A stretch of DNA of 64,000 bases. It comes from Rhytidiadelphus loreus (Eukaryota > Streptophyta > Bryopsida > Hypnales > Hylocomiaceae). This document shows, one piece after another, positions 6,890 to 56,368 of this stretch. The notes beneath the pieces were generated by a model. The model was not told the origin of the DNA, did not search any database, and was given only the letters and a program-made list of their open reading frames with translations. Each line of letters opens with the position of its first letter. The stretch's first letter is position 1. The DNA is taken from positions 7,130,001-7,194,000 of the forward strand of contig OX344764.1 of NCBI GenBank assembly GCA_947034895.1, in the 5' to 3' direction. The position numbers and the translations under genes are program-made.

Positions 6890-7343
6890 ATTTCCGAAAT
6901 TGAAGAACCTCTTGAAATTGAATTTATTGACTCAAACCCCAAAGTTGAAGAAATTCCTCACATTGAACAATAAAGTTGAAGAAAACTTTGACATTGAAGA
7001 TACTCTTGAAGTTGAATCCATTGGCTCAAACTAGGAAGTTGGTGAATATCCTAACATTGAAAAAACTCTTGAAGTTGAAGTTGAATGCATTGACTCGAAC
7101 AATAAAGTTGAAGAAAACTTTGACAATGAAGATACTCTTGAAGTTGAATCCATTGGCTCAAACTGGGAAGTTGGAGAATATTCTGCAATGGGAGGATATT
7201 ATGGAGTTGAAGAATATTTTGAATTTGAAGATTATTTTGAATTTGAAGAATAAATTGAATTTGGAGAATATTCTAGATTTGAAGAATGTTATGGATTTGA
7301 ATATTATTCTGAAATTGATGAAATTGAATCTATTGGATCAAAC
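6890..7343 (+). repeat. Degenerate Glu/Leu-rich simple repeat
   Basis: Irregular repeats of words such as gaagttgaa, ttgaagaa and cattggctcaaac lead into the regular 77-bp array. Long frames here (for example 6976-7398) are low-complexity Leu/Lys strings and not a credible protein. Confidence 0.6.
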
Positions 7344-7716
7344 TTCGAAGTTGAAGAAATTGTCGAAATTGAAGAAACATTTGCAGATGAAACTATAAAA
7401 TTGAATCTATTGGATCAAACTTCGAAGTTGAAGAAATTGTCGAAATTGAAGAAACATTTGTAGATGAAATTATAAAATTGAATCTATTGAATCAAACTTC
7501 AAAGTTGAAGAAATTGTTGAAATTGAAGAAACATTTGCAGATGAAACTATAAAATTGAATCTATTGGATCAAACTTCAAAGTTGAAGAAATTGTCGAAAT
7601 TGAAGAAACATTTGCAGATGAAACTATAAAATTGAATCTATTGGATCAAACTTCAAAGTTGAAGAAATTGTCGAGATTGAAGAAACATTTGCAGATGAAA
7701 CTATAGTAGATACATC
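7344..7716 (+). repeat. 77-bp tandem repeat, about 4.8 copies
   Basis: The unit starts ttcRaagttgaagaaattg at 7344, 7421, 7498, 7575 and 7652, a constant 77-base step with few substitutions between units. Since 77 is not a multiple of three the reading frame shifts each unit, so this is not a coding repeat. Confidence 0.9.
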
Positions 7717-9311
7717 ACTTCTCCTTTTAGAAAAGGTAGTAGATACATTACTTTTCCTTAAAGTGATTTTGTTAGTGATTTTGTTCATTTTTTTCTTATC
7801 AGACTTTGATTTTTTAGGCTTAATTTTTGGCCTTACCTTATTTTTCACTTTCTAGATATTTCCATTGTACCTCCATTGTGGAAAATTTTGGAGAAGAAGA
7901 TAACTACTTATATCCAATTATATTATGGATATTAGCCATATAAGTAGCCAATTATGTTATGTATAGCTCTTGAAAATATAAAAAGAATAATATCAAATTG
8001 TGTGAAACATCCACAAATATCTTTTTAAACCTATGATTTTAATATTATTCCATTTGCTATAACAAATTATCATAATAAATATGTTACCATTATTTTTGAC
8101 TACAATATTGAAAATTTTGAAACTAAATCAAATCATGTTTGTATACAAATTAATTTAATTAATTTTTGAGTTTCAATAGTGCAAGATCTCATACTATTTG
8201 AATGAATTCTAGATGAATGTGATCTAATTAGTGTACACATTTGGATGAATATTAGAATATATTGGATGAAAGAATAAATGGAAAATAGTTGAAAGTTGGA
8301 TGAAAATTATACCATTGGGACAAGATGAAAATAACTAGCGTAGACCACAATATAATATTGAATTGATCTAGAATACTTTGGAGTACCATATCACTGCACC
8401 CTACAAATTTCCATATTTACCAATGTATTGCATATTAGTGTTATTACAAAGTGATACTTGTGATTGCAATGCAAGTATCACTAAAAATAATATTAATTAA
8501 TTTGTATACCACTACAAACATTGATTTTAGCAAGACCCACTAAGGCCCACATAACAATCTAGAGAATCTTGTGGAGCACCCATGGAATCACAGTCCTTAA
8601 CTCCTAAATGCCCAATGCCTTTTTAGAGCTTCTTGTAGTTTGCTCTAAAATTCAACAAAAATTCAACAAAAATTCAAAGTTTATGATGAGTTTCATCAAC
8701 TTTTTTGAATTGTAACTATAAGAATTCAACTAGGACGTGTTGTGGATCACATGTGAAAAGAAAACACTACAACAACATCACTTAGGGACTAAAAGATTGT
8801 AATGTTTGACCATGAAACTGTGTTTCACACCAAAATGTGATGCCTTGGGTATTTAGGGGTTAACACCTTGTTTTGCAAACTTAAGCTCGAATTGAACAAG
8901 TGAGAGCTCCTTAAGCCCATGACTTAAGCCACGTGAAAGTATGTCAGAGCTCTTAATTTTTCTTGGTTTACTTTGATTGACAAGATTTTGCTACAAATTA
9001 TTCGGAATTGGCAGTGTGGGGCACTGCTCAAAGAAGTTATGCACTAAGTTATGCCACCACACCACTCAAGTATGGTGTTTTGACTTCAAAATTTCATAAT
9101 TAATTCCATGAAGCTTCAAAAAATATGAAACGACTTGGGTTAGATGTCAATTCTCCTTGTCTTTCAAGGAAAATTTATTGAAAAATATTTCAAGGTGTTT
9201 CACCTCCCTAAAATTCAGTTCCAGCCCTTACATGGTCCAATGTGCCCCAGGGAGTCCACAGTAACTTATACAGAAAATTTCAGAGCCGTAGCACTGCAGC
9301 TGCAAGGCCAG
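7717..9311. other. AT-rich intergenic sequence
   Basis: No gene recognised. Contains 'ttggatgaa' words (8210-8340) like those near 1020, 4850 and 10330, and a 'TTTAGGGGTTAAC' word near 8850 of the kind found at ends of several repeats in this window. Confidence 0.3.
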
Positions 9312-22102: not shown

Positions 22103-22480
22103 CACCAAAGCGGAGGAGGCTTTATACTCACATAGTTACGTTGTTTGTGAGGTACTTTTGAGGAGACACTTATCCTAAACAATTGAGCCAATGTTTCACC
22201 AAAGCGGAGGAGGCTTTGCACTCACATAGTTACGTTGTTTGTGAGGTAGTTTTGGGGAGACACTTACCCTAAACAATTGAGCCAATGTTTCACCAAAGTG
22301 GAGGAGGCTTTGCACTCACATAGTTACATTGTTTGTGAGGTAGTTTTGAGGAGACACTTACCCAAAAACAATTGAGCCAATGTTTCACCAAAGCGGAGGA
22401 GGCTTTGCACTCACATAGTTACGTTGTTTGTGAGGTAGTTTTGAGGAGACACTTACCCAAAAACAATTGAGCCAATGTTT
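22103..22480 (+). repeat. 94-bp tandem repeat, 4 copies
   Basis: Units begin CACCAAAG(C/T)GGAGGAGGCTT at 22103, 22197, 22291 and 22386 and end with 'caattgagccaatgttt'. Unit-to-unit divergence is low, so the array is young. Confidence 0.92.
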
Positions 22481-33889: not shown

Positions 33890-34374
33890 TAAGGTAAACC
33901 AATCTATTGTAGGTCAGAATAAGGAATTTGACATCATGTGGTTACTAAAAAATTTCACTTTGTTTCCCACAGTAGTACAAGTGTGAGAAACAGTGAGAGC
34001 AATTGAAATTATGGGTTTTTTTGACACAATATGAATTTTCTATGAATTTTTGAAGTGTTCAATGCATCTTTGCCTATAAGAGTGTGTAGACTACCTTAAA
34101 ACCAAGAAAACTTGAATCCATCATGCTCACTTGGCTCACCTAAAGCAGTCAAAGTCTTTTCTAACATGGACAGCCTGAAAAGTCAATTCTCACAATGAAT
34201 TCTCATTGAAAAATTGGAAGTTCCTAATGGAGTCACTAACTACTTCATTATTGTCATGTAAGACATGCATTGAAGACCAAATCTGAAAAACTTGAAAAAA
34301 AACCCCATAATCATGGGGTCATTTGGTAGGTGTCCACAATGGATCATTTGACCACAATGGGTTGGTTTACCTTA
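33890..34374 (+). mobile_element. MITE with TAAGGTAAAC ends, copy 1 (485 bp)
   Basis: Ends TAAGGTAAACCAATCTATTG and, reverse-complemented at the right, TAAGGTAAACCAACCCATTG. A second copy, colinear over its whole length, is at 55892-56368, and a third, split copy lies at about 28860-29450. Confidence 0.85.
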
Positions 34375-37063: not shown

Positions 37064-38190
37064 TTGACCCCTAAATTACCAAATTGCGTTTTTCAACAAT
37101 ATAGCAATTTTGGGGAGCTCACTACAACTAGAATTTTATTTTAATCTCTTTGAAATTTTCATACAACATGTGCCCCCATGGAGTAGCTTTCAAGCGCAAC
37201 AATTTTCATAATTTTTGATTTCATGGTTAAAAAGTTATTGTATGATGTGTAATTTTTAACCCCTTAAGTGCCTTGACTATGTTTTCACCAAAAATGTTCC
37301 AAAACTGTCATTTCTAGTGCAAGTACCACATTTTAGAAAAGAAAACATTTTTGAACACATAAAACTATAGGATCTTGTAGTATGCTAGTTTGAAAAGATG
37401 TAGAAAAAATTTCAAAAGTTTCCACTGTGTCGATTCTAAGATATTAGCGTTTTGAAGTGACAAAAATCTTTGTTTTAGCCCTACAAAAAATTAGGCAATT
37501 GCACTTCACAAGGTCACATTTGTATGAAAAAATGTCCAAAATGGTGGTGCTTCTTTGCATTCATTCTTGAAATCAAGTTGGCTACGTGCTTGAAAAATTT
37601 CAAATCATTTGGAAATGTACAACATATAGGAAAAATGTAGTAAGTAGAAAGAATTAGAGATTGATTCAAAGTTCAAAGCTTTTAAGAATGTTTTTATGGA
37701 GTTGAAAAATGACAATTTCAATGGTTGCAATGTTGTATTAAACAATCTACATCCTATGATTTTATTTTTTTCAAAAAATATTGAAAATTGAGTAAAATAA
37801 AGGACTTCAAAGTTTATTTTAGAATAGAGAATTCATAATTGCCCACAAACTAAACTCCTCATAAATTTCATCTCATTAATCAAAATGGAATGATTCAAAG
37901 TTTTCTATGTGTATATAGATCTAGTAAACCAATTTCAAATTTTTGTTTATGAAAAAAGTGATTATTTCTAGATTTGCCCAAATTTCCCATCCGGTGAAAA
38001 AAATTACATATCATACAATAACTTTTGAACCATGTAGTCAAAAGTTATAAAAATTATTGGGCCTTAAACTACTGCTCGTCCCCATGTTGTGTGAAAACTT
38101 CAAAGAAAAATAAAAAAAATCTCCATCCGTAGTGACCTCCCCAAAATTTCTATATTGCCCCCAAACAAAGCTTGGTCCTTTAGGGGTTAA
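37064..38190. mobile_element. TTRACCCCTAAA-ended element with ~190-bp inverted ends
   Basis: 37064-37258 and 37985-38190 are diverged inverted copies: left TTGACCCCTAAATTACC..., right reverse-complemented TTAACCCCTAAAGGACC..., both continuing through 'caatatag.aattttgggga' and 'aaaagttattgtatgat.tgtaattttt'. The enclosed segment 37258-37870 is repeated in inverted orientation at 38200-39008 and, beyond the large transposon, at 53718-53835. Confidence 0.6.
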
Positions 38191-38444
38191 TGCTCAATGG
38201 GCAACTCTTTAGTTTGCAGGCTATTATGGATTCTCTATTCTAAAATAAACTTTGAAGTCCTTTATTTTACTCAACTTTTAATATTTTTTGAGAAAATAAA
38301 ATCATGAAAATATAGGCACTATTTGACAACTTTTTGAATTTTTTTGCCAACACTGCAACCATTGAAATTGGCATTTTTCAATTCCATAAAAAAATTCTTT
38401 AAAACTTTGACCTTAGAATCATTCTTTACTTCTTTCTACTCACT

Positions 38445-38742
38445 CATTAGAAGAGATTTCAGGATTTTGAGGGCCGTTTGAGGGCCGTTCTTGGCGCTAT
38501 TCCCCTGGCAGTGAAAGAACGCCGCTGTCAGATTTATTTATTTTTGAAAAAAAAAAAAAAAATTAAGTCCTTCAAATGAGAAACAAAGTTTATTCTTTTA
38601 TTCTTTTATTTTTTCGAAAAAACTGACCTGGCCGTCTCTCGGCCAAGTCAACACAGGCGGGGAACAACGGATTTCGGCGGTTCTCGGGGGGGGTCGAGTT
38701 GGAAACTCGCAGCCCTCCCTGAGAGCCAAAACACATGTAATG
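38445..38742. mobile_element. CATTA-ended MITE inserted in the inverted repeat copy
   Basis: Left CATTAGAAGAGATTTCAGG, right reverse-complemented CATTACATGTGTTTTGGC; inner ends share GGGCYG / AGCCCTC. The paralogous segment near 37600-37660 lacks it, which supports the boundaries. Confidence 0.65.
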
Positions 38743-38998
38743 ATATTATTCCTCCATGTTGTACAATTCCAAATGATCTGAAATTTTTCAAGCATGTAAC
38801 CAACTTGATTGCAAGAATGAATTCAAAGAAGCACCATCATTTTGAACATTTTTCATACAAATGTGACCTTGTGAAGTGCAACTGCCTAAGTTTTGGCAAA
38901 GCCAAAACAAAGATTTTTGTCACTTCAAATACTAATATCTTACAATCCACACAGTGGAAACTTTTGAAAAAAATTCTACATCTTTTCAAACTAGCATA

Positions 38999-39008
38999 CT
39001 ATAAGATC
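38999..39008 (+). repeat. Left 10-bp target-site duplication (CTATAAGATC)
   Basis: Matches CTATAAGATT at 53708-53717 with one transition. The related unoccupied site (reverse strand of about 37379-37401) reads actacaagatcctatag, with a single copy of this word. Confidence 0.85.
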
Positions 39009-39210
39009 CAGGGTTGCTAGCGTGCGAGCCTGTGAGCATGAGCGTGTGAGCTTGTGAGCTTGTGAGCAGGAACTTTTTTTGGTTAAAAATAGGTGAGGGA
39101 CCTATGGCCGTGGGTCAAGATTGCTAGTATGTGAGACAGAGCCCATGAGCCCATGAATTGATGAGCCTTGCATTTTTTGTCTATTACCTATGACTATGGA
39201 TATTAAATTG
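39009..39210 (+). repeat. Left terminal inverted repeat, internally duplicated
   Basis: The terminal pattern (TTGCTAG, GTGAGC words, T-rich, 'cctatggccgtgg') at 39009-39115 is followed by a second, looser copy at about 39120-39207 (ATTGCTAGTATGTGAG ... 'cctatgactatgg'). Confidence 0.7.
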
Positions 39211-42200
39211 AGGTTGAGGGCAAAGATTTTTGTATAATTTGAAACTAAAGGGTTGGAAAAAAGTAATGATTTTACTTATAAGTAATGTCTTTTTAAGAAA
39301 ATATATGAATTTGAGTAGAATAAAATCATGAGATACAATACAAGAACTAAGAAAATAAAAGAAGAATTAGTTACGTTCAAGAATTTAAAAAATAATAGTG
39401 TAATATAGAAAATCCAATCCAATCTATAGCAATGCAAATCACTAATATATTGTCATGAAGAACATAAATCCAATTTGGAGACTACAAATCCAATCCAAAT
39501 CAAACTAAACACCTCCAAATTAAGAACTAGTAGAAGAGTCCGATACTGACTCCCCATGTGAAGAAACTGCCTCGACATCAACATAATCCAAAATACAAGG
39601 GTCTACTCTTTGATGATGGGGCAAATTACGTGTGCTGCCATGAACTTCGAATGCTCGAGCCAAGTCCTCAGCATAAACTGGCAAGGCAAAAGACTTCTCC
39701 GGACTTGGAAAGAAGTCGGGTCTACCAAAAAATGGCAAGTTCAACTGGGAGTTCCACCTCACAGATCTAAAGGACAAAGACAAAACAATTTAGTCAAATT
39801 GCAATATAAATTTATAACTTAATCAAATGAAAAGTCTAAGGTTGACTTACGTACTAAATCGTGATTTCTTCTTGATGGGTTCCACGATACAAAGCTCTTC
39901 GTTGGAATCACCCAAGTCTTGGACCACTGGTATTGTAGTAACCGCAACAGATGACGAAGGACGTATTAGTGGTTCCAATATGGCTTTAAAGATGCCCTCA
40001 TCTTCCTCAAGAGCAACAATGTGGCGACCAGAAGATCGGCATGCATGGATAGAGGCACCTACATCAAAACAAATTATTCCAATTTAGACAAAGTTGACAT
40101 CCTGTACATTATAGCTACACATGAAAATATGCTAAAACTTAAGAATTTATAGAAGATAAAAGTAAAGAGAACATGTGCTTGCAGTGGAATCAAAAACAAC
40201 ATCTCCTTGCAACGTGCATGACTCAATCAACATATTCATTAACAAATGGCTCTTCTCTCGAGGACCACGCCATGGACTGTTGCCATTCATGGCCAAGTCT
40301 TCAATAGACATAATGTTTTGCAAAATGTCATCTTGGTTGACATCAACGCCACGGAACTTGAGGTCGGGGATTTGCTGGAAGTTGAATTTTGAAGCCGGAA
40401 TCTTAGCAAGGTTCCTAACTAGTAGAGTAATTCCAAATCGCAGAGTCTGCATTAGGAATTTAGAGTTAATATTTCAAGTTCTTAAGGAAATATCAAGACT
40501 TGCAAGTTCAACAAGGAATATGGAGAAAATAAAGTTTCTTACTGGTTTTCCCATGTCTGAGGGGTTTGTCAAATATAGTCGATTCATGCCCCACCAATCT
40601 TTCTTCTTCTTGAAAGAGTATGCATTGCAATGTTGAAGAATTGTCATCTTTGCCTTTGTACTTTGAGGGTGAATGACAATGAAGGCGCCATCATCATGGA
40701 GATGATTATCAGCAAACTCAAAAAGTGGTTGCAACCACGAGTCTGGTAGAGCATTCCACTGTGGAATGCTCGATTCTGGCTCACTCACACCGGGAACTGG
40801 AAGATCCTCGGGCATGTCCACCAAAATGAGGTCGAAGCCGGGGTGCTTATCAACCACTCCACGGTAAGCCCTCCCTCGCTTTGATGCGTTCTACAAAACA
40901 ATGCAAATATCAAATAATTGCAATTACCATGACAATCTACAAAGACAACCATTCATTCTTATACATTGTATTACTTCATTTGAATTTTGTTACAAGTACC
41001 TGTTGAGAGAAGTCCAAGATGCGTGTGTATTCTGTTGGAGTTGGACCGCTCATACTGCCAAGAATTGCCTCCACATTCGTATTTATAATCAACTCCGCTA
41101 TAGAAACAACAAGTGTAGCCTCCTTAGTCTTTGGCAAAGGTCCACGAGTGAGGACCTCTTCAATCAACAACGTATACGGGGAGGTGGAAATCTTAGCCAT
41201 GGTTGGTAGACCTTGTACTACCGAGGTGTTATCCACTGATGATGCAAGAACCTCTGGAATAGGTGCTGTTGCAATGGCCTTCTTTCCCTTTAACTTTTGA
41301 GCCTCTTTCTCTGCAGCCTTTGCAGCCACCTTCAATTTCTTCTCTGTCTCCCTTGCAATTGCCTTTTCTGCATCCTTCACAAGTTTTTCCTCTTTCTTTC
41401 GATCTTCTTCTTGACGCTTCAAAATGGCCTTCTGCTTTGCAGATTCCTCCAAGCCTGCGTACTCCTCTAACACAACATCAGTAGCCCCCATTGTTTGAAG
41501 ACTTTGTCGCAGTGCAACCTCTATAGGTGGTGTAAACGTGGGCTCACACTCTAGATACCATCCACAACCGTTTAGATGTGTGGTTGTCTAGGTCTTCAAC
41601 TGGTTCAATGAGAACATGCACTCAGAAGACCCTCGATCAATCCATGTGCTCAAGAATGGAGGCAAGTCATGTTTGGAGATGGCCTTCTTGTTGTATAACT
41701 CTAACTTGAAGTACCTAATGAAGGAAGTGAAGATCAATATTAGAGATCACGGTCACATAAAATGAAAGATTTAATTTTGGCAATATATTCAAAGATAGTA
41801 AATGATAACTAATTGTACCTAAAAACGACGCGTTTTATCACGTTGTCGTTACCACTGAATTTTCTGAAATTGTCTCCTTTCTTGAAATGACCTTTGCCAG
41901 TTAGATTACTGTGGAATGCCTGATCCCAAATCTTCATGCGCCATCCTTCAACATAATCTGCTGCCGTTTCAGGCTCAAGAGGACTTTGCATGTCCACTGT
42001 CAAATTGTCCCTACAGATTATCGTGTCTACAACCTCAACCACGGCCTCTTCAATCTGCAAAAAAATACAAAATTACTAAAAAATAAATAAATTCAAATGA
42101 AATGAACATTGAATGTCAAAGACAAAGCATGGAGGATGTTGGAGTAAATTCTAAACTCACTCCTGCCCACCACACTGCCCTGTGAAGAAAGGCAGTGAGT

Positions 42201-43959
42201 TTGTCGTCGTTCATTGGCTTTGGAGGAAACTTCCTTGCTTCACGTGAATGGGTGGACAAATTCCACCATTTCAACCACTTTACTTTGTAAATAGCTTCTG
42301 CACTAGAATTTGAGATAAGCTGAAGTTTATCAAGAGTCATCTCTGGCTCAACGTTTAAACTCCAATGCCTCTCAATCTGCAATACAAAAAATATGAATTT
42401 ATTTAGATTTTAGAATTTTAAGCATAGACAATGAATATAAACTTGGTTTGGCATAAAAAATCCCTCAAATTTGATTTGGACCCTTACCTCTTCAAGCCAG
42501 TGTGGACCAAAGGCTGGATTTGCCACCGCCACCATTTTCGCAAGCTTGTAATACAAATTGGAGGTCTTATCCCTTGCCCCCTTCCGCATAGCCATCACTG
42601 CTCCAGCTTCATCCACCTCTCCGTCTGGGGTACATTCATGGTACACTCTCACGGCCGCATCTGCTGCAATAGCAATCTCATGCTACAAAAATGCACCACA
42701 ACACAATTGAAGATACAAAAGAAGTAAAAAACTTTAAAAAGCCTCATCTGAAAATAGAAAAATTGAAGAATACTTTCCAAGACATACCCGAAAGATAAAC
42801 GAAGTGAAAACCTCCAATGGCATTGAATACCATGTCTTCTTTGAATTTTGCTGGCACTTTACATATTCGGAATCACTAAGAAGTTCCTTGAATTCTTTTA
42901 ATGGCATCACTCCATACTTTTGGATCTGATACAAAATGTGAACGAGTTTTGTTTTGACATGAGAGTCTTCAGTGTGCCTGTAAAACAATATAAAACAAAT
43001 AAATATTATTGAAGATATTGAACAATAATACAATGCATTTACAAATGCAAAATTATATGAAAATGAAAATGTTGTAAATACACACTTACTTATTGATATC
43101 ATGCATCGCTTGCATGACTGCACCCGTACGACCTTTTGTCTCAAGTAAAATGCAATCCACCTTGATATGCCAAGATGGATCTTCGCTGTGGAGTCTCGTA
43201 ATGTGAGACATCCAAGCAATGTGACGGTGATTACCATCACAAATAAAGAACTTCGAGTTCTTAAGACGCCTGAGCTATGGTGTACAGTCTAGAAATGCTT
43301 CAAACTTCACCACCTCTTCTTTCCACAATGGACTTAGGGATGCATGGTCTTCCGGTGTCATCAATTGCATATCCCCTCTCTCATTCATAGTTGAAACATA
43401 AAAGACACAAGCCCCATCGCGATAACCATGGATGAATTCTTGCTCGAGCTTAGTGAGATCACAGGTCAAAGTAGGTCTCACCATAGGCATTGGAGTCAAA
43501 AGGCAAAGCGGAATACAAATTCGAGAAAGTGGTAAAGGCTTCAATCGCATGCTATTGATGGTCGTGATGGAGTCCACTTTTTGCTTCCTCCGAAGATCAT
43601 CTTCAACGTCAGCCTCCTGGTCCATTGCCTCTTCACCATCCTCGTTGTCCTCTTCATCATCACTATTAGTGTGACCAATCTCGGGTTGCTTATTCTCCTC
43701 TGAGTTAGGTGTTGATGCTTCTGATTGAATCCCCTGTGTCAATATAGGTGTACTAGGATCCTGAACTCATGCAAGACATTGAAAATTTAGTTAAAATATT
43801 CAAATGGGTGAAGCATGGAAGGCTTGGAAGCATGAAATGTAATATTAGATCATCCTCTAAGGTTATTCAAATTGATTGAAGTAATGTAGTACTTGCTCTC
43901 ACCAAGGTCTTATTGGCAATTTCATGCTCTTCCAGATGAGTTGGTCTAGATGATGGAAT

Positions 43960-45809
43960 CTGAGATACAAACATTAATGCCATAAGAATAATGTTAATGT
44001 CAATAAGTATACTAAGATCTTTAACCAATTCAGACCCCATCATTCAATCCCAAAAATAAACATCATTGGATACTACATTTTGATGAAATGTTGGAATATC
44101 TAGTGTTCATGATTTGAATCCAAAACAATTTATAAATTAAAGTAATCACTTAAAACAATGACTATGGAATGAAAATAATGTAGAAGATGTACAAAGACCA
44201 CATTGCGGCACCGCAAGGCCCATGCTTTAAAATTTAAGAACCATTTTGTTAACCATTTTAGATCTTCAACCATTTCTAAGGACTACAATCGATACTAAAA
44301 TCTATAATAAATTGATCTCCCTCTTTGATGGAATGCTAGATCTCACCAAATGGCTTCAATAATTTGAACCTTTACCTTCACTAGTTGCAAACTTAGTGGC
44401 TAGTGTTCTATTATATACAATGATATAAATATGAACATCATATGAACTTCAAATTCATATGAATTAATAATCAAATGAATGAAGATTATAGAGGACAACC
44501 ATTTTGTTCAAAACAAAAATAATACATCCGTCTTGACCCCATTGCATTACCACAAGTACTCTCCTTGATGATGAATTAAAATAAATTCAAAGAGAAAATA
44601 CTTTGGTGAAGACTACTTTCAACAACATACTCCAAACAAATACTTAAATTTTTTTGTCCCAAAATCCATTGCGGTCACGCAATCTCTAAACGTTGTAGTC
44701 CTTCAAAACAAGGAATGAATCAGAAAAACAAAAAACAAAAGTTTCACAATGTTCTTAATTCTGCCTATATAGTATATACTAGTGTCATGGGAAAGTTTAT
44801 GCATCATCTTATTGAAAAATTATTTCAATTAGTCAAGTAGGTCTAACAAGGGGGAATTTCTAACCTTCACATCTTGTTGAAAAGGCAAAGTCAACAACAT
44901 AGTGTTGCATTGAGACAACAAAATCAAGATTTTATGATCATGTGATGAGGTTTAAAAAAATATTAGAATTTCCTACATGCTACTTGCGGTAACGCAAGTA
45001 TTCAAAGAAGGTTCTCAAACAAAAATCTGAAATGAATAGAAAATAATAATTAGCTATATTGAAGGGCCTCGGCATACACTCTAGATGCCCAATGGACCTC
45101 AAAGATCAAAAAATCATGAGCTCCCCAACACCTTCATTCTAATTTGAATTGAAAGTTATTACCACAAGCAGTAGTTGCGTCACCGCAAGCAATTGATCTA
45201 CGAAATCAAATTAAAAAAGAAGCGTCATCTGTCAATGCACATAAGGAATTGCATCACCGTAAGGCCCAAGCAATTGCATCACTGCAAGGTGCAAGGAGTT
45301 GTATCATTGCAAGGCGCAAGCACTTGCGTCACCGCAAGGCACAAGCAAGTGCGCCACCATAAGGCAAAAGTAGGTGCGTCACCACAAGACACAAGTAAGT
45401 GCATCACCGCAAGGCAAAAGTAGTGCATCACTACAAGACGCGAGCAATTGCGTCACCTCAAGGCACAAGCATGTGCGTTACCGCAAGCAGGTGCATGACG
45501 GCAAGGCACAAGCAAGTGCATCACTACAAGACGCGAGCAGTTGTGTCACCTCAAAGCACAAGCAGGTGCGTTACCGGAAGCAGTTGCGTCACCGCAAGGC
45601 ATAAGCAAGTGCGTGACCGCAAGCAGTTGCGTCATCGCAAGGCTCAAGCAGGTGCGTTACCGCAAGGAGTTGTGTCACCACAAGGAGTTGCGTCATCGCA
45701 AGGCTCAAGCAGGTGCGTTACCGCAAGGAGTTGTGTCACCACAAGGAGTTGCGTCACCGCAAGAGTTGCATCACTGTAAGGCATAAAGAGTTGCGTCACC
45801 GAAACTTAC
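43960..45809 (-). other. Intron 1 of the ParB-methylase gene
   Basis: Bounded by a consensus donor (gatgag|gtaagt, 45809) and an acceptor at 43961-43960. Besides the tandem array it holds isolated palindromic copies of the array core: TTGCGGCACCGCAA at 44203-44216 (six-base arms), TTGCGGTCACGCAA at 44669-44682, and ACTTGCGGTAACGCAAGT around 44982-44999 (seven-base arms), plus a weaker one near 44542. Confidence 0.75.
45160..45805 (-). repeat. Tandem array of ~25 palindrome-like units (core TTGCGTCACCGCAA)
   Basis: The core TTGCGT[CT]ACCGCAAG recurs with steps of roughly 25 bases, shortening to about 17-18 in places near the 3' side, separated by 'gcacaagca'-like linkers. The arms TTGCG/CGCAA are inverted. 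Good copies start at about 45175, 45324, 45583, 45766 and 45791; others differ by one to three bases. The last unit runs into the exon 1 splice donor. Long frames on the plus strand here (45175-45786) are only translations of the repeat. Confidence 0.9.
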
Positions 45810-45999
45810 CTCATCAACAATCGGTTTCTTTGAATTCTTTGGCAACTGCTTGTTTGTCCGAGATCCCTCAATGTCATTCTTCTTCTTGGCAGCACTCCTC
45901 GTCGACCGCCGTTGATCCATGGTTTCCTGCACAACTCAAGAAATTGAATATTAGTTTCTAGCAATCAACAAACTCATGCGTGTTTTCAATGAAGTAGTG

Positions 46000-47600
46000 A
46001 GAATGGGAATATGAATCACAAACAACTAACCAACGTGGCCGTCAATTACAACTGCAATATCACAAAAAGATCATGCTTGAAGATCCGTGAATAAGAGACC
46101 GATTCACAAAGGTTTTGCAATGGCACAAAGACATCGGTAGCAAGAACCTTTAGGCAGGAGCTGTCTACGGAAGCTAGAAGCCAAAAGCCAGGCTCGGCTT
46201 ATCACAAAGATAATCTTGCAAGGAGGGCAAAATTCCGGGCTCGGTGCGTGATGTACAGTACATCTTCCCCAAAATTTCGGCAACCAATCTCTTCGTAGCA
46301 TTTTCGCCCAAAATTTTCAAACCCAATCTTATCTTATTAGATATCTCAACCATTGAATTAAAATGACAGTAAGGATTACTAACCGTTAGTTGGCAAGTAA
46401 TTCTAACATTCAAATTTTATATTCAAATAAATAATTTATATTTTATATTCAAACAATTTTATATTCACTTATATAAGATTGTTTGCATTGTTACATTATT
46501 TATGGCTTGACTGTTAGTTTTAGTAGTCTATCTTAATTTAATTTCAATATATAATATTTGAAAATTAGTTGGAATGTGTTATTATTCATCAATAGTTTTT
46601 TGGTTTAATCATTGAAGGATACGGCTCTTCATGAAAAATGCTTCAATTATTAGACCAATAGGTGCATTCTTTGTATCTATAATGAATAGTCAAGTCATCC
46701 ATTGGACATTTTTCAGTCTCAACATTCTTTAAGGGTGAAGAGACATGATGTAGGTAATTTTTTTCAAAAGGCTTTAATAGAAAATCTTATTGGAGATTTT
46801 ATCTTTTAATTAGGTATTTTGGATTCTTCTTTCAAACTTTATTTTCATAATTTCTCTAAATTTTTTATTACCAATGAAGTGATTTTATATATATATATAT
46901 ATATATATATGTGATATTCGTATATTTCAAAGCCAGTAGCATCTAAATTATTTCTTTTGTACATATGTTATTAGTCAAAAAAATAATTTACGTTCTTTAC
47001 TAAATTATAGAAAATTAAAGGCTAAATAGCTGTAGGAAATTTAGCAAGAAAAGTATAAATGGATGGCTTCATTTTTCTATATGTAGTTAGAAAATTAATG
47101 AAAAAATGACATATTTCAAAAGCCATATTCATAAAATATCCATTTCAAGAAGATTATTGAGATCTAATTACAAAAATAATGAATTCAAAAATAGTGCATT
47201 CTGGTTATCTAGTAAAATTATAATCATTAATCAATTTATAAATTGTATCAACTGCATAGAAATTAATAAGGGAAATTCCAATTTCAACATATTGTGCATT
47301 ATAGATATCTTTTCTTTTCATACAACATATTATTTTTATTCATTGTTTCACTATAATAGAACACTGGAATACAAATTTCATATACCTATTATACTATATC
47401 AACATTTAAAACTATGAGCACAAGATTAAATTTAATTGACATGTATACATTATATAGAGTAGCTAATATCTAAACTATTCTATTTATTTGTACCTATGAA
47501 CAAATAATGTATAATCAAACATATAATGGATTAGGCTATATTTTAACATCAAATAGCTAATGTAAACAAGTTTATAGTAGGAGCACAAAAAGGTTCATAT
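46000..47600. other. AT-rich interior of the large transposon
   Basis: No gene recognised. 46104-46413 has higher GC with two minus-strand frames lacking motifs, possibly UTR. An (AT)n microsatellite lies at about 46888-46911. Confidence 0.4.
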
Positions 47601-47720
47601 TCTAAAGATGAATCTTTTGACAACAACAAATCTTGTAAAGTGCACTATAATGTTTTTTTCAAAAAACATATGATTGCAAGGAATTTGAAAGACATAGAAG
47701 GTGTTTGTATAGATGCATAC

Positions 47721-48044
47721 ATTTTCCATGTCCTCTCCAATCGGCTCCTGTTGTGCAGTAATGGTCTCCTGTGACATTTCTACCAGAGCCTCCAAATTTG
47801 TCTCTACTATGTCTACCTCCATGCCGCAACCTCCTTCTCCATAACCAAGTACGCGGATGGCTCCAGATGTACCTTGACTTGTCTTTGATACGGCTTTTTT
47901 TCCTTTCATCTTGGATCTCCTAAGTGCCTTGGAAGAAGAGAATAGAAGTGACCTACGCTTTCTCCTACTTTTTGTACCCTTTGCAATAATACAAAAACCA
48001 CTCTGGATCTCTATGTGCATGAAGTACCAAAACAAAATATGCAT
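47721..48044 (-). CDS. Candidate 5' coding exon of the ParB-methylase gene
   Basis: A minus-strand frame from ATG at 48044 runs 108 codons to a donor (gaaaat|gtatgc, 47721), phase 0. A good acceptor precedes the downstream exon at 45926 (gtgcag|gaaaccatg), also phase 0, so the two could join and make the 45920 ATG internal. The peptide has a strong basic nuclear-localisation-like cluster (KSRRKRRS), then ALRRSKMKGKKAVSK and an acidic end. An acceptor-like aag at 47980-47979 would allow an exon of 47978-47721 instead. GC is above the flanks. It could also be a separate small gene. Confidence 0.4.
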
Positions 48045-48630
48045 ACCTATACTCTAACTTCTTAGTACTTCACCGCATAGAATGCATTTGAAAGACTTGA
48101 CACTGGAATACATAAGTCCTTATATACTCTCACAAGTAAGCTTTGCCAAACCTTTTCATTCAATAGAGTCTGACAGAGTCTTCCATTTCAAAATAGAAAA
48201 CCTTTAAGACTGAACCCTAAACTGCGTTGCCAAAACTTGAAGAGTACCATTTGCAAATCCATAATGTAACCTCCAACTACCACCTACAGGCCATAGTCTG
48301 ACTCAGTGGATCTATGGACTATTGATGAAGGATCTTAGGTGACAAATATTTCAATAGTATTGAAATTGCAAGTTCCTGACACAGTCGCCTATTTCATTAA
48401 ATAACTTTTAAAATTTGGCGCTTCATAACTAAGTGGATGGTGGCATGACAACCGTTCTGCCAATTGAAATTACACCCTTAATTACTCACTTACATCATGC
48501 TCAAGTATTCCGTAATTCCTGTTTCAAAAACCTACAATACTAAACTCCATTACAACAATCAATTCTTCATCTTTCCTTACAATCATTGGCTACCTTTTGT
48601 TTTTGAGAGAATTTGGTCAATGTTGTAGTC
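48045..48630. promoter_or_regulatory. Divergent intergenic region, candidate bidirectional promoter
   Basis: Lies between the minus-strand candidate ATG (48044) and the transposase ATG (48631). No repeat or gene in it. If the upstream exon is real, both transposon genes start from this 586-base gap. Confidence 0.35.
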
Positions 48631-51600
48631 ATGGCGTGCATTCGAGTAGATGGTCATGAAATTCCCCTCGTTTTTCCAGTTGATGATGGTGTACAAGCTA
48701 GAGTTTGCAGTCACCTCCTTCATGTACGCTTCAGATTTATAGAGTCTTCTATCTACGTCGAGGAAGAGAAGAAGTCAGAATCTGGTGCATTGCAACAATC
48801 TGTGCCAATTGTGAAGTCTGTGGAAGATGAAGGGCATTGTTGGTACCTTCCTGCTGGAAACTTTAGAGCATATGGTCTTCCCTTATCTTTGCTAGATGTG
48901 TCCACAGGGATACTTAGTCGTCACTCAGAAACATCTACAGTAGATATGCCTTACTTGGCTCAAACAATTTCATCCGGTCCACCAAGAGAAGTTTCTCCTA
49001 TACTTCCAAAGAATGCATTGCTCCGAACAGTCAAGATAGAGCCTTTAGATCCTATCATTGAATTGTCTAGTGAATCGGAGAGGGAGTCCCCACACTTGAT
49101 ACTTCAGAAGCAACCATCATCTGTTCAAATTGTATCGACCCAAAAAACACTTGATAGCTCTGCAGTGGGCACTTTGTCTGATAACCTTACACAATCTCTA
49201 TTCTCTCGTCCTCCATTGCACCCAAGTATAGTTGATCGATTTAGCATAATGGATTGCTTGAAGAGACTAGCGAGCATGCACCGTTCTCGGAACGAGCTGT
49301 CTACTACAGATTTAGATGCTATGAAGCACCATTGTGTACAATTTCTTCCACCGGTATTCAACGGAGATGTCATTTTTGAGTTGCCTCCATGTCGCTCATC
49401 TGCTTCTACATCGGCAGCTCGAAACTTGGAAGGAATGGACAAGCGATACGATGGACACCCATGGTGCAAGTTAGTAACGATGAACATTCACAACTCCGAC
49501 CATTTGAAGTTCCGTAAGTCATACTGCGCTGGTCATCTTGCTTGTGCAAATTCCAAATGTGATTTTTTGAAGAGGGCTTCTAAACAAAACGAAACAGAGT
49601 GGACTGGTTGTACTACCTTTCCATTTGCAGTTGGGAAAAGTCCTCCCAAAGATTCAACTCTAGTTTGTAAGGTTTGCAAGAATCCTCCTATATGCTTGAA
49701 AGTTTGTGATGCTAGGATATACTACTCCTACAGTGATAATTCCAAGATGACAAGGGCTGTTATTCATTTTGGAGATCATACACACCCAATTGCCAAAGGT
49801 ATGTATAGAGATTCTACTGAAGAAATTTGTAGCCTCATTGGGGAAGTGGTGGCAAAAACACCATTGGCCACAAATTCGGCAATTGCACTTTCTGCAAGTA
49901 AGGAGTTCTTGAAAAACTACCTATTTCACAATGGAGAAGGAGAGAAGGAGATGTTGTGGGATAATGAACTAGAAGATGTCATGGACCGCTTTCAATATTT
50001 GAGTAGTTCCAATATACGGAACGTGATATCATCCTTTCGCTCAAACAACCGAGGAGGTATTATTGACAACATCATGACTATGAAGAAAGACTCAAGATTT
50101 GAATACATTCATGACAGCGTCTTCCCTGGCCAAGGCAAGGAGAAGGTCTACTTGTTCAAGATGCTCACTGAAGGACCTGGTAGTGGAGTGGACTTGGTGA
50201 AACGCATGCAATCTGGTGGGGATCTAGCAAACACGTGGATGATGTTTGACCACGTGAAGCGTGTGAAGGATTGGACGACCATGGCATGTCACGTATATGA
50301 TCCAAATTACAAAAAGGTCATGACTATTTCAACATGCGATATGCAGTCAGAAGATACAGAGATCCAAGTACAATTCTGGAGGTGCTTGAACACTGTTATA
50401 TCTCGCTATGGAGTACATCATCCAAATTTCAAAGGGTTCGTGGCAGATAGTGCTATGGCCAATTGGAAGGCTGTTCGAATTGTTTACGGCACTGGATCTG
50501 CAGAAGACAAAATGGAGAATCGAGAAAGGACCTGCTTGCTACATTGGAGTACTTCTCTTCAGAAACATACGCAGAAGTACATCAAGGCAGATCTACAACA
50601 TCAACACACTAGATTGTGTAAACAATACAAGGATTCAAAAACTATGGACGAGGCAGAGATGCGCTACCTCGCAATTCGGTCATGGTGGTTTTTATCCGGT
50701 GCTGCAACTGAAGATGCGCTCCATCACTTGGACCATTGGCTAGCATTTTGGCATTTCCGTTATAGGCAATGGGGAGGCTTCATGCAGATGGTATGTGAAC
50801 ATGAATTTTCCTTTCAATCATGTAGCCATTATAGAATTGCCAATTAGGTCGAAGAGTATTGTATATTTTTTTTACCATAGGTTGATTTGATTGTGAATTT
50901 TTGAAAAAATAATAGTTTAGAGGACTATATATGAGTTTAATTATTGTTGAATGTTTGTGTACTCATTAAAAAATCAGAAATGTCAACTTTTTTTTTTCTA
51001 TTTATAAAACAAAATTATTCAATAAGAGAAATTCCTAACATTCCATAAATTAAATATGTTGTCCTCCAATAAGTTCTTAAAGGTAAGGTATCTATAGAAT
51101 AAAGTGCTTTATTGGATTGAAGTAGTCTTTTATAGCAAATCATGCACTCAAAGAATATTATAGCTTTCATGTCAGAAATGAAAATCTTTCAAGTAAATTG
51201 TACTTGTGTTTTGTTTTTTAGGACTTGACTTTGGAGGAGATGGCGGACATGCCTTCTTGCAATTTGTCTGAGACCGTCCACAATAAGTGGCTTCAAATGT
51301 CTGGAAATCGAGGAAACAATTTGTTCGACGCTACTTGTGATGATAGTATCCGCGCATTCATGCAAATGACAAACTATAGAGCATATTTAAAAGGCCATGC
51401 TTCTGGATCAGGTCCATCAAAGGGGGAGTTGAAGTTGAGAGCTGCAAAACGAAGTGGAGACCCTAAGAAAATGGCAGAGGCTTTAAACACATTACCTGGA
51501 ATTGAGGGTGTTGGAACTCGCATACCACATTTGGAAGGGGAAGAAATCTTTGGAAGCACAAAAAGGAAGTTGGACATACCGATTGGTGCCGAAGGAGACT

Positions 51601-52610
51601 CACATCGCCCAGATAAAGTAAACTTCTCTCAACATCGTGTTCGAACAAGGTCTACTATGGCTAGTGCAACGTCTTCTAAAGATGGAGGAATGCATATGGA
51701 GGCAAATATTGCCACTCATGTAACAACAGCTTTTGAAAGTGATTGTGACACGTCAAAGTGGCATATTGCCAGAATTAGCCACAAATCGAGTGCCAAATGT
51801 CAAGCTCAACAAAGGGGTTCAAATATAAAGTGCACCGCCAAAATTGCAAAGGGATCAAAGGGAACTGCCGCTCCGACCTATCACGGGAGGAAAGAAGATT
51901 ATGGAAGTCGTCGGGAGGTGGTAGCGGACTTTTGGTTTTACTGGGATGATATTGAATGATGTGTGAAAGGAACAAAGCGGAAATAGGTGATTGATTGGCC
52001 TGAGGTACCTGAGATGTGGCCTATCTTGACAGGAACTAATCTGAGTCGAGAAGAGACTTTATTATTGCAACATGCGGGCTTTCGTTTGCAAGATTGCCCT
52101 ACATTGTCTCCACGTCGTCTCTTCCACATGTCGAAGACATTTCAGAGTGTTCTTTATGACCACCCTCCACCAATGAACCCAGATGCATACCCAACAGTGA
52201 GGAACAACAAAACCATCCGCCGAATTGCGAATGCACCAACAACAGAACAACGAAACAAGTGGGAGAGTGCATGCAACATCAAAGGACAAATTATAGGATT
52301 GACCTTGCTTCCCTTTCTGGGATTAGGTGCAATCGTATCTCTAGAGACTGGCCCAGAGCAAAATCGAAATGTGTACCGAATTACAGTAGGTATGTTTCCA
52401 ACATGCACTTGTCCGGATTTCCTGAATATGGCCGTCTCTGCAATTGGAGGTCGTCAACAATACATAAATTGCAAGCACTTGTACTACTTGTACAAGTACT
52501 TTTGCAAGATGGATATCCATAAAGACAAGTTCATTCATGCTCCAAGTTATAGCTTCAATGAGTTGAAGCTTCTTCTTGTTCGAGCTGGGATCATTTCAAT
52601 TTTAGAATAG
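48631..52610 (+). CDS. MULE-type transposase with SWIM zinc finger, two in-frame stops
   Basis: Exon 1 is 48631-50790 (720 codons) with donor cagatg|gtatgt; exon 2 starts at 51222 (ttttag|gac), phase 0. It reads to TGA at 51957-51959; the same frame then meets TAG at 51984-51986 and stays open to 52610. The order fits a Mutator-like transposase: unrecognised N-terminus; a Cys/His cluster (C299, C305, C310, C346, C349, C355, C359, then GDHTHP at 381-386) like the WRKY/GCM1-type DNA-binding fingers of MULEs; a DDE-like core with D540 (MMFDHV), D606 (VADSAM) and a CLLHW motif, third acid perhaps E694; then a C-terminal SWIM finger, CTC at 52404-52412 and CKH at 52470-52478. The two stops look like TGG changed to TGA and TAG. 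Alternatively a 69-base intron (gag|gtggta near 51918 to tag at 51986) removes both. Confidence 0.85.
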
Positions 52611-53500
52611 AACCTCAGATGGGTTTGTAGGTACTTCATTTGTAGCATATTATTATGCAATTGTTACAAGTGGAATGACTTCAACCATGTGGCATGGAAA
52701 ATATGTTTGCATTCACTATATATAGTTATATACACATATGTGTCTGTGGAGCGTAAATTTTCAATTAACACTACATGAATGTAATGAACCTCAGATTCTG
52801 CAATAATAATTAGTAATCTTTATTGAAAAAGAAATTGTGCAAAATTGTCTTTTCATTTTGATTTGAAAATGCAAAATTGGTTGCGGTCCTACAACCCATT
52901 TTGGGAACTTTTAATAGAAAAAAAATTAGAAATGACTCTTTTGGCCCACCTCGAATGTTGAATCAAGCATTGTGAATGAGATTTCAAGGCCAACAGAAGT
53001 TGAAACACTAGTTTCAAATAGCTTACGGTACCGCAACCAATTTATTCCGTTTCTCTAAAAGTTAGTTTCCCATTTTTTTTCCCATTTTTTTTCTATTGAA
53101 AAAAAAATCAATTTTTTCCATTTTCTTTAGAGTATATCTTCCGTATTTTATCGTTCTAGTTTTCCTAGGATTGGTCACTCCATTAGGTTGGAGTATATGT
53201 GTAAGAGGTCCATTATATACAATATGATGGCCTGGGTTCAAATTATGCTGGTGGGTTTAGTCTCTACATAGACCATAATGACAAGAGTTGGTTAAGAGAA
53301 TTTATAGTGGAGACATAGTAGTAGTTACCTTTTTTCTTATGAGTATTGTTAGCTAAAGTCATTATATTGTGTTGTATTAGAATTCTCTAATTGCATAACT
53401 AGTGAAATTGTAGTGGGTGAAGTAAGTGTTGAAACTATATATTGAAGTTTGAAGGTCTTTTACTGTTGCAAATGACAATTGATACACAAAGAAAAAAATT
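52611..53500. other. 3' flank of transposase inside the element
   Basis: AT-rich. Two looser copies of the array core, TTGCGGTCCTACAA at 52881-52894 and TTACGGTACCGCAA at 53023-53036, lie here. No gene. Confidence 0.6.
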
Positions 53501-53707
53501 AAACAAAATCCACGGTCATAGGGGTAGTGGTCATAGGTCACAAAATTTACTATAACTAGAATTTTTTTCTTTTTTCAAGTTCTTTTTTTAAAATAAAAAA
53601 TTTCGGAAAGAAAAAAGAAAAAACTATAGTTTGGGGCTCTAGGCTCACAAGTTTTAAGCTCGTAGCTCACAAGCTCGCTGCTCTAGGCTCGCATGCTAGC
53701 GTCGTTG
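53500..53707 (-). repeat. Right terminal inverted repeat
   Basis: 'aaaatccacggtcatagg' near 53508, a T-rich zone, then GCTCAC-type words and GCTAGCGTCGTTG at the end. It matches 528-745 directly and the left end 39009-39115 in inverted orientation. Confidence 0.8.
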
Positions 53708-53717
53708 CTATAAGATT
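53708..53717 (+). repeat. Right 10-bp target-site duplication (CTATAAGATT)
   Basis: Pairs with 38999-39008; one mismatch. The interrupted host repeat resumes directly after it. Confidence 0.85.
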
Positions 53718-53839
53718 CTACAGTTCTATGTGTTCAATTGGTATTTTCTTTTCTAAAATTTGGTATTTGTACTAGAAATGGCAATTTTGGAGCGTTTTTA
53801 GTGAAAACATAGTCAAAAACCTTTAGGGGTTAAAGTCAT

Positions 53840-55891
53840 TTTTGTCATCCATACTAGTCATTAAAAATTTGTTACACAATGGAATTACAGAGAATAACTT
53901 CACTTGAATTATTAGAAACCAATAAAATTATAGAAAATAGAGATATTTTTAGTCTCATTGGTGAAACCAAAACATATTAATGAATGTAGATTATGATAAA
54001 TGTCATGGTCTATATTATGCTATGAAGGTTGCTATTATGTGAACTTAGGAACATGAGCCCATGGGCCTAGAAGACAATACATCTACATTATAGGTGTCTA
54101 TCATAGAAACCATCTATAATTATTCTATAACTATGTTATAGAATAGATACCCATATTATAGGTGTTTCTTGAAGTGTTTATATCATAAGCACCTTCAATG
54201 GTTGTAGCATATTTACTTATACATATTCTCAAAGCTCACATGCTTGCATTTTTATACTTATACACTAACTTACACATTTTAATGAAAATAACTTCACTAA
54301 CAACTAATAGACAATTGAAAACAAGTATATGGTGATGAAAAAGAGCAATTCCCATAATTATCAACTCTATATTTTTTTGAAATGTCTAGCAACAAATTTT
54401 AGTAGTATATAATAGTAGCATATGTCTTGGAATGACATTTGTAAAAATCAACTAATTAAAAAAAATAGTTTACTTCATCTAAATTTATTTTATAAAAATT
54501 GAATATTCTTTCCCTAAGATATCAAGTAAAATGTCCTTTGTAGTTAAACAACTTATTTTGTTTTTTTACTATGTATGCATTTTGTAGTTAAAAGTCATTG
54601 AATTCTTAAAATTTTGGTAATCCATATGGTTTGATACAACACAATTCATTATCCACATTTGTCTGTACATGATCATTTTCAATGATTCTGCACAATAAAG
54701 AGGAACAATATATGAAGTTTAAAATTTTTTGAAAAAGGTGAAGGCACTATTTAATGTATTGTAGAGAATTGAAAAAAGGACATGCAAAATACTTTTTATA
54801 TGTTCATGTCATTTATAGCATGCTATAAAAAGTCATTTGATCCCTTAGAATCAAATAACATGGAAGCTATCCAATAATGCCTAATTCAATTGTTTGTTAA
54901 ATCTTTGTAATGTAGTTTGTTCATGCTTGATGTCAATTGACAACTTTGTATACAAAAAACATGTAACCACAAAAAAAAATTAGGATTCCATTTAGCATTA
55001 ATTGAACCTTGAAGATTGAATTTTTATTTTTGTACCTTGCACAAGTCTATAATAGTAGTAACTTACTAAATTACATAACAACAATTGTTGAGGATAGTGA
55101 CTTAAATGATATATGACAAGATTTCATTCAATTATCAATCATTTTTATTTTTGTCCATGATAAATCATGTCAATGCTTCTTGGGTCAAAACATGGGAGTA
55201 AAATGCCTAACCAAGTCATAAGGGTGGCAACTAAAAGAGGTGCAGTGATACAATGAACAACATTAAGAAGGTGTAGTCACAAGGTGGACTTTGCTAGACT
55301 CGCCTTTATGAGGATTTGCATTGTTGATGTGTTTAATTAGAAGTTGCGCTAGTAGGTTCATTGGTGCTTCTCTAGTAAAAGGCACCATTGGAATTGTGGG
55401 ATTCATAGCATTTTAAAAATGGACCTCACGCCAAGCAACTACTTCAATAAATACTTTCCTTCAACCACTTTTCACGTAAGAAGTCTACACTTGACTTGCA
55501 TGGATGACCGAAGACAATTGTCCACTAAAATTTCTTATGCAAATAAGGTGTTATGTTATTTTGAGGGTATACCTCTCGGTAAAGGATATAAGTGTTTGTG
55601 AGGCACATATTTACTTTGAAGATGAACAACCTTTGCTACCACTTTTTAGTTTATATATGATGTACATATATGTACCATGGATTTGGTCTTGGACATCCTA
55701 CTATGCATATTTTGTGTATACAAATATTGAATGGGTGAAGACAATATTTGCACTACTTCCCTTCCAACATGCTCGATAACTGTACAATTTGCAACCACAA
55801 GATTTGTTGTGGTGCTCAAGAAGTACACATACTATGTATTGATCCATATAAATGAATTCCCCAAATACTTCACTATACCTTGTAATCTATA
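53840..55891. other. AT-rich intergenic sequence
   Basis: No gene recognised. A small perfect hairpin, ttctataac-tat-gttatagaa, sits near 54124. Short frames at 55419-55949 show no motif. Confidence 0.3.
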
Positions 55892-56368
55892 TAAGGTAAA
55901 ACAACCCATTGTGGTCAGAATTAGGAGTTTGACCACATGTGGTTACTGAAATTTTCAATTTTTTCCCCCAAATAGTACAAGTGTGAGAAAAAATGAGAAC
56001 AATTGAAATTATATATTTTTTTGACAAAGCATGAATTTACTATGAATTTTTGAAGTGTTCAATGCATCATAGCCCAAAAGAGTCTATAGACTACCTTAGA
56101 ACGAACAAAATCTGAATCCATCATGCTCATGTTGTTTACCTAAAGCAGTCATAATATTTTCTAACATAGAGAGTCTAAAATGTCAATTCTTACAATGAAT
56201 ATACATTGAAAAATTAGAAGTTTTTAATTTAGTCAATAGTCACTCCATTATTGTCATGTAAGACATGCATTGAAGCCAAAATCTTACAAACTGAAAACCC
56301 CCCATAATGGGGATATTTCCTAGGTGTCCATAATGGGTCATTTGACCACAATGGGTTGATTTACCTTA
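55892..56368 (+). mobile_element. MITE with TAAGGTAAA ends, copy 2 (477 bp)
   Basis: Ends TAAGGTAAAACAACCCATTG and, reverse-complemented, TAAGGTAAATCAACCCATTG; colinear with 33890-34374. Confidence 0.88.

Follow-up and report, generated by a model that had tools for sequence, protein, structure and literature searches.

A large Mutator-like element in the moss Rhytidiadelphus loreus with a methyltransferase-like cargo gene and internal palindromes

How can a transposon escape silencing at its own copies and leave the host genome alone? In plants, VANC is a known case of such an escape confined to the transposon's own copies. A locus of the moss Rhytidiadelphus loreus raises it anew. It lies in a stretch of 64,000 nucleotides (GenBank assembly GCA_947034895.1, contig OX344764.1, positions 7,130,001 to 7,194,000; hereafter the window, whose numbering is used below), in which a preliminary description had outlined a 14.7-kb Mutator-like transposon with two genes. 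One encodes the transposase. The other, transcribed divergently and here called the cargo gene, encodes a protein with a domain of the bacterial DNA methyltransferase type. We give an even chance to the reading that the locus is an inserted, now disabled copy of a large, old family of Mutator-like cut-and-paste elements, with the cargo protein as a self-recognition factor.

The borders of the element are well defined. It spans positions 39009 to 53707 (14,699 bp), from CAGGGTTGCTAGC to GCTAGCGTCGTTG, and the same ends are found in two other complete elements described below. The flanking 10-bp target site duplications (TSDs), CTATAAGATC at 38999 to 39008 and CTATAAGATT at 53708 to 53717, are identical at nine of ten positions. 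A related empty site had been pointed out in an inverted copy of the surrounding host repeat; it reads CTACAAGATC, and the copy was taken at 37200 to 37640 (minus strand). Indeed, the joined flanks (38740 to 39008 plus 53718 to 53870) form one continuous alignment with the reverse complement of that copy, with a score of 516 versus 386 for the left flank alone and 142 for the right, and the junction holds a single 10-bp word. The host repeat thus breaks at the element and resumes after it, as had been described. This site is not allelic; it belongs to a diverged copy of the host repeat, inside a foldback. That foldback, at 37097 to 38448, has inverted repeats about 81% identical, and the element has inserted into a relative of it.

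The inverted ends also agree with the preliminary description. Both carry the core GCTAGC-R-TGCGAGCCT, at 39016 on the plus strand and at 53700 on the minus strand, the only two occurrences in the window. Across the genome (407 Mb, window pair included) this 16-mer has 59 exact matches, compared with none for the reversed control. Beyond the core, the inverted repeat is short and imperfect: the left terminal inverted repeat (TIR; 39009 to 39067, plus strand) has the core GCTAGCGTGCGAGCCT followed by degenerate GTGAGC repeats, and the right one (53636 to 53707) has the minus-strand core GCTAGCATGCGAGCCT. The window copy itself is disabled: the cargo model and transposase exon 2 each contain two in-frame stops, and the possibility that it is intact was rejected on these grounds.

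Do the two genes move together? The closest relative of the window element, here called the sister (contig C2), is 94.8% and 94.4% identical to it in two main aligned blocks and colinear across both genes. It starts with CAGGGTTGCTAG, ends with GCTAGCATCGTTG, measures 16,780 bp and is flanked by two perfect copies of GCATTTGGTC. A further complete element, copy C (contig C4), is 17,422 bp long, has a transposase 76% identical to that of the window and lies between perfect CCTCGGAGTG duplications. All three complete elements therefore have a 10-bp TSD, identical at 9/10, 10/10 and 10/10 positions. The size of the window element had been called unusual; with relatives of 16.8 and 17.4 kb, it is ordinary within its family.

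Linkage of the genes holds well beyond these three. Four more transposase copies, taken from 60 scored and probed at the left side only, all have a cargo gene on the opposite strand and the left end CAGGGTTGCTAGC, so that the cargo is present in all seven elements picked by their transposase. In the reverse approach, eight places were picked by distant cargo copies (42 to 62% identity) and a 6.5-kb stretch was fetched at the expected transposase position of each. In six the transposase is there in the expected orientation, with pieces 45 to 75% identical, although in one case it is fragmented; of the other two, one holds nothing recognisable and one a second cargo gene. Two unrelated insertions, adjacent by accident and sharing their ends by chance, would be an extremely improbable explanation: nothing beyond the imperfection of the inverted repeat speaks for it, and it was rejected on account of the two other complete elements, which have perfect TSDs and repeat both the ends and the gene order. 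The two divergent genes move as one unit, as the preliminary description had proposed.

The family is also large. A genome search with the transposase gave at least 60 near-full-length matches (window included), scored out of 1,768 first-look candidates; internal stops are absent from 39 of these 60. The corresponding cargo search scored 150 of its 2,587 candidates and yielded at least 318 exon matches. Both counts are lower bounds, and the family numbers at least dozens of relatives in this genome. Two arrangements stand apart. At locus L036 (236 to 1401, plus strand), a second cargo-gene fragment, near the L038 cargo in sequence, lies just outside another element's left end, which points to nested or neighbouring insertions. 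At L053 (3677 to 6499, plus strand), a cargo gene occupies the spot expected for the transposase, beside another cargo copy.

To which superfamily does the element belong? Transposase exon 1 (48631 to 50790, plus strand) encodes a zinc-binding region, a first aspartate in MMFDHVK, a second in GFVADSAMAN, and CLLH; exon 2 (51222 to 52610, plus strand) contributes the glutamate of NLSETVHNKW and a SWIM-type signature, CTC..CKH. MMFDH and CLLHW are invariant in all 15 transposase rows, the second aspartate is present in at least 90%, and NLSETVHNKW and CTC..CKH occur in both of the transposase copies that were read for them. The resulting order D..D..C-x2-H..E was read by eye, as were the putative catalytic roles. 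Mutator-like elements (MULEs) have TSDs of 8 to 11 bp, a range that includes the 10 bp of the window family, and commonly a SWIM zinc finger, according to the available portion of one account (PMC6446971). Terminal inverted repeats, another MULE feature, are present in the family in a short, imperfect form with a 16-bp core.

Family models are less forthcoming. The Pfam MULE models match none of the 15 exon-1 proteins, nor exon 2 of copy C, which weighs against the assignment. The Pfam SWIM model matches the window copy at E 0.05, below its cut-off, and does not match copy C; a transposase profile found no match in the PDB, and an AlphaFold model of the protein has a predicted local distance difference test (pLDDT) score of 32, too low for use. 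The Mutator-like label of the preliminary description is thus supported by TSD length, the predicted D..D..C-x2-H..E order and the CxC..CxH signature, and not by a family model.

What does the second gene encode? The cargo gene of the window (39520 to 43959, minus strand) was modelled with 11 exons (43959-43903, 43760-43090, 42977-42788, 42682-42488, 42376-42161, 42054-41819, 41714-41000, 40890-40543, 40446-40173, 40058-39851 and 39766-39520), of which the start exon is not fixed, and its protein has about 1,115 amino acids. Six other copies were spliced under the guidance of the window protein. The models of C, L035 and L036 have 11 exons of sizes like those of the window, those of L037 and L038 have ten, with the short first exon unresolved, and that of the sister is irregular; C and L037 have no stop. 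A chance cluster of open reading frames was rejected by this recurring exon structure and by conservation in the other copies.

Exons 8 to 10 (39955 to 40890, minus strand) encode an N6/N4 amino-methyltransferase-like domain, with the S-adenosylmethionine motif at the exon 9/10 boundary. All six cargo members match Pfam PF01555 at E 0.1 or better (best 1.3e-6), with the bit scores shown (20.3, 23.4 and 20.7) under the curated cut-off of 26.7. Moreover, the cargo methyltransferase profile (A2) matches CcrM (PDB 6pbd) at E 5.6e-5, colinear along most of the domain, and one cargo member, at about 25% identity and a best E of 4e-4, matches seven Staphylococcus phage records, the majority of which carry the annotation of a site-specific or modification methylase. 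A scan of viral contigs with the methyltransferase profile gave 81 stretches that matched the pattern, none of them confirmed as a relative.

The catalytic motif is altered throughout. In the CcrM alignment, DPPY stands opposite D-C-Q-E of the cargo. The canonical [DNS]PP[YFW] was found in none of the 14 elements read, 13 of which have D[MVC][PQH]E: motif IV is DMPE in five (the window copy has this form), DVPE in three, DCPE in two, DCQE in two, DCHE in one and DMPK in one. The extra fragment at L036, outside these 14, reads DCPK.

These motifs bear on a first alternative, in which the cargo is an active N6-adenine or N4-cytosine DNA methyltransferase with a variant motif that marks its own element. 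Such marking has been suggested for ParB-methyltransferase proteins of algal transposons, and the two-domain layout, length and antisense orientation of the cargo are like those of a 1104-residue protein of the Ectocarpus element Sola1-1, as far as the accessible part of that account goes (PMC12477816). The leading aspartate of motif IV is retained in all 14 elements, the DCTA core of the S-adenosylmethionine motif in 11, and the cargo is conserved across subfamilies. However, the aromatic residue and the first proline are gone in 14/14, and changing SPPY to APPA in the rotifer N4CMT abolished activity, according to the available part of that report (PMC8885841). We think an active writer somewhat unlikely. 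From the fold and the mostly kept S-adenosylmethionine motif, together with the turn of the catalytic motif to D[MVC][PQH]E, the domain probably serves as a DNA-binding module that is non-catalytic or of altered chemistry, instead of an ordinary writer of N6-methyladenine or N4-methylcytosine.

The N-terminal part is harder to place. A region in cargo exon 2 (43090 to 43532, minus strand; in-frame stop inside in the window copy) with a CDGNHR motif bears a weak ParB/DGQHR-like resemblance, a label given mainly because of a sub-threshold match of the NCBIfam DGQHR model to the copy C protein (E 0.0053, below cut-off) and the architecture reported in Ectocarpus. Weighing against it, the region has no convincing match in Pfam, and structure comparison with an AlphaFold model of the exon (pLDDT 62) gave no significant match.

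Are the genes maintained? For the transposase, the ratio of nonsynonymous to synonymous divergence (dN/dS, by NG86) has a median of 0.098 and a range of 0.07 to 0.53 among 20 loci, over the 176 of 190 pairs kept for a synonymous divergence (dS) of 0.05 to 2. For the cargo, counted without the first 60 aligned columns, dS was estimable in 11 of 21 pairs overall; of the 20 pairs between subfamilies, 10 gave an estimate, with dN/dS of 0.08 to 0.16, and these values are rough because silent sites are saturated (dS 1.7 to 3.5). Between window and sister the ratio is 0.52, which is what copies in decay should show. Across subfamilies, selection appears to have maintained both genes.

They have not always descended together. 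We compared transposase and methyltransferase trees of 13 elements, with intron-spill columns of the methyltransferase masked, the partial transposases of E50, E51 and E54 retained and E47, for which no transposase was found, left out. Each alignment rejects the whole tree of the other (approximately unbiased test, p 3e-4 and 1.5e-7). In single-split tests, the methyltransferase rejects E36+E38 (p 0.0008), and the transposase rejects C+E35+E36 (p 0.02) and the C clade with the E48 group (p 2e-7). The grouping of the window subfamily with the C clade, seen in the transposase tree, is compatible with the methyltransferase data (p 0.37). The supported conflict sits at E36. Exchange of cassettes thus has support within one clade, without a demonstrated case in the subfamily of the window; co-descent of cargo and transposase is only partial.

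This bears on a second alternative, that the cargo directly helps the transposase, for example in the choice of donor site or in strand-transfer assembly at internal sites, and takes no part in silencing. The cargo lies regularly beside the transposase, and the palindromes described next sit just past transposase exon 1 in 9/20 loci. In contrast, the palindromes are interior rather than at element ends, and the conflicts between the two trees mean that tight co-adaptation is not required. We consider a helper of this kind unlikely.

What could a self-recognition factor recognize? The non-coding centre of the window element (44203 to 45762) has nine TTGCG-N4-CGCAA sites, four dispersed and five in a minisatellite (45243 to 45774), where composition predicts 0.006 and the 49,281 flanking bases have none. 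The exact form TTGCGTCACCGCAA occurs four times in the 407-Mb genome, always in the window element. Another palindrome, GTCGGATCCGAC, occurs 657 times in the genome versus twice for the reversed word. In the window element, the sister and copy C, the count of the commonest inverted repeat is higher than in any of 60 shuffles. The same is not true of the four partial elements, and in three stretches of window flank the count is reached by 1, 23 and 27 of 60 shuffles. The other clade has a palindrome of its own: GTCGG-N2-CCGAC occurs 19 times in 278,086 fetched bases (overlaps included), in copy C, in L035 to L038 and in nine of the 20 transposase loci L009 to L028, where it sits just after transposase exon 1. 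Four control palindromes gave no occurrence in this comparison, and the window flanks have no GTCGG site.

The genome-wide word also lies near family genes. Among the first 50 GTCGGATCCGAC places, 15 are within 15 kb of one of the 12 family genes listed in the same 35 Mb, compared with a mean of 0.49 under circular shifts (P 0.0004). None of the 50 is within 15 kb of the four exact end-core matches in that range. Runs of the word at C1:11101590-11119052 and C1:11249385-11268064 repeat a spacing of about 5.8 kb, with one gap of 7.1 kb, as if part of an element had been tandemly amplified.

Several observations weigh against a recognition role for these palindromes. Eleven of the 20 transposase loci lack a GTCGG site, and none turned up in the sequence fetched for L044 and L046 to L059, which are more distant elements. 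The 15 GTCGGATCCGAC palindromes near family genes adjoin only four of the 12. The window sites are partly tandem copies of one another, several GTCGG sites are common by descent, and the sister retains one of the nine window sites, its other palindromes lying in an insertion. In addition, the outer arms of the GTCGG sites vary yet are partly self-complementary, which fits a hairpin or inverted duplication as well as a protein site: over 14 distinct 28-bp sites, 61 positions pair versus 46.7 expected, a value reached by 2 of 5000 re-deals.

This covariation favours a third alternative, in which the palindromes have nothing to do with the cargo protein, being by-products that form hairpins or come from repeats. 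So does one window-flank stretch, whose commonest inverted repeat was likewise reached by only one of 60 shuffles, and so do the TGACT palindromes of the sister, which lie within a repeated insertion (seven TGACT-N6-AGTCA at element positions 7516 to 7930, most of them in sequence that the window copy lacks). Against it, the 10-letter core is invariant over several diverged subfamilies, and the palindromes cluster near family genes. We consider such an origin less likely than not.

We therefore return to a self-recognition role for the cargo, inferred from the mobile unit, the conserved genes, the altered motif and the recurrent palindromes, together with the VANC case (PMC5735166, as far as available). 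In this scheme, the transposase would bind the short inverted ends and move the element, with 10-bp duplications as the result. The cargo protein, from the divergently transcribed gene, would act as the element's self-recognition factor, its ParB/DGQHR-like N-terminal and methyltransferase-like C-terminal parts binding palindromic sites inside element copies. By analogy with VANC and VANDAL elements, this binding may keep the copies expressed or transposable. Anti-silencing, methyl writing and transposition aid are all candidate roles of the cargo.

A more specific version is tentative, and we place it well below an even chance. The family would have its own address system, in which a protein of bacterial ancestry, ParB-like and with a non-catalytic methyltransferase-like part, reads parS-like palindromes and so tells self from host; different cargo clades would have different palindromes (GTCGGRYCCGAC versus TTGCG-N4-CGCAA), cargo and address coevolving. 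The putative tie of the TTGCG palindrome to the window's cargo clade comes from a single case, the window element. The palindromes are candidate recognition sites and directly testable.

Other features of the window lie outside the element. A dispersed repeat flanks it on both sides (33890 to 34374 and 55892 to 56368, 83% identical). Tandem arrays occupy 7167 to 7705 (offsets of roughly 75 to 230 bp) and 22103 to 22480 (94 to 190 bp). Open reading frames at 2156 to 4839 (plus strand) resemble what we take to be a plant-type bestrophin channel gene.

How does the family compare with known systems? The cargo had been called unusual for a MULE, and its kind is already known from algal transposons of another superfamily. 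The Ectocarpus element Sola1-1_Ec32 is a 21.5-kb Sola element with a 1104-residue ParB-like and N4/N6 methyltransferase protein on the strand opposite the transposase, and the same account cites similar proteins in green and red algal transposons (PMC12477816, available portion). Like the moss family, it has an accessory gene of about 1,100 codons that runs antisense to the transposase and encodes both kinds of domain, ParB-like and N6/N4 amino-methyltransferase; unlike Sola1-1, the window family has 10-bp TSDs, short GCTAGC ends and a SWIM-type transposase, the proteins being compared by description. The available portion of that account mentions no altered catalytic motif or internal palindromes. 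Within the literature searched, the new points are the Mutator-like placement, the loss of the standard catalytic motif in 14/14 elements and the palindromes; that search, which most subscription papers lay beyond, met no Mutator-like element with such a cargo named in titles or the starts of abstracts.

Fungal DNA transposons with a TET/JBP dioxygenase likewise carry a gene for a DNA-modification-type enzyme, of another class and in other transposons (PMC12730594, in the part accessible). VANDAL elements of Arabidopsis are Mutator-like and have a second gene, VANC, whose protein targets specific motifs, often arranged as tandem repeats (PMC5735166, in its available part). The moss cargo is likened to VANC by description, and an anti-silencing role is suggested by analogy. 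The family may give a second, differently built self-recognition protein, in many diverged copies within one genome. Finally, with the beta amino-methyltransferases of the CcrM type (PDB 6pbd), the cargo shares a colinear profile match and a catalytic motif placed before the S-adenosylmethionine motif. It differs at DPPY, where 13 of 14 copies read D[MVC][PQH]E and one DMPK: across subfamilies, a DNA methyltransferase domain of bacterial type has outlasted the loss of its standard catalytic motif.

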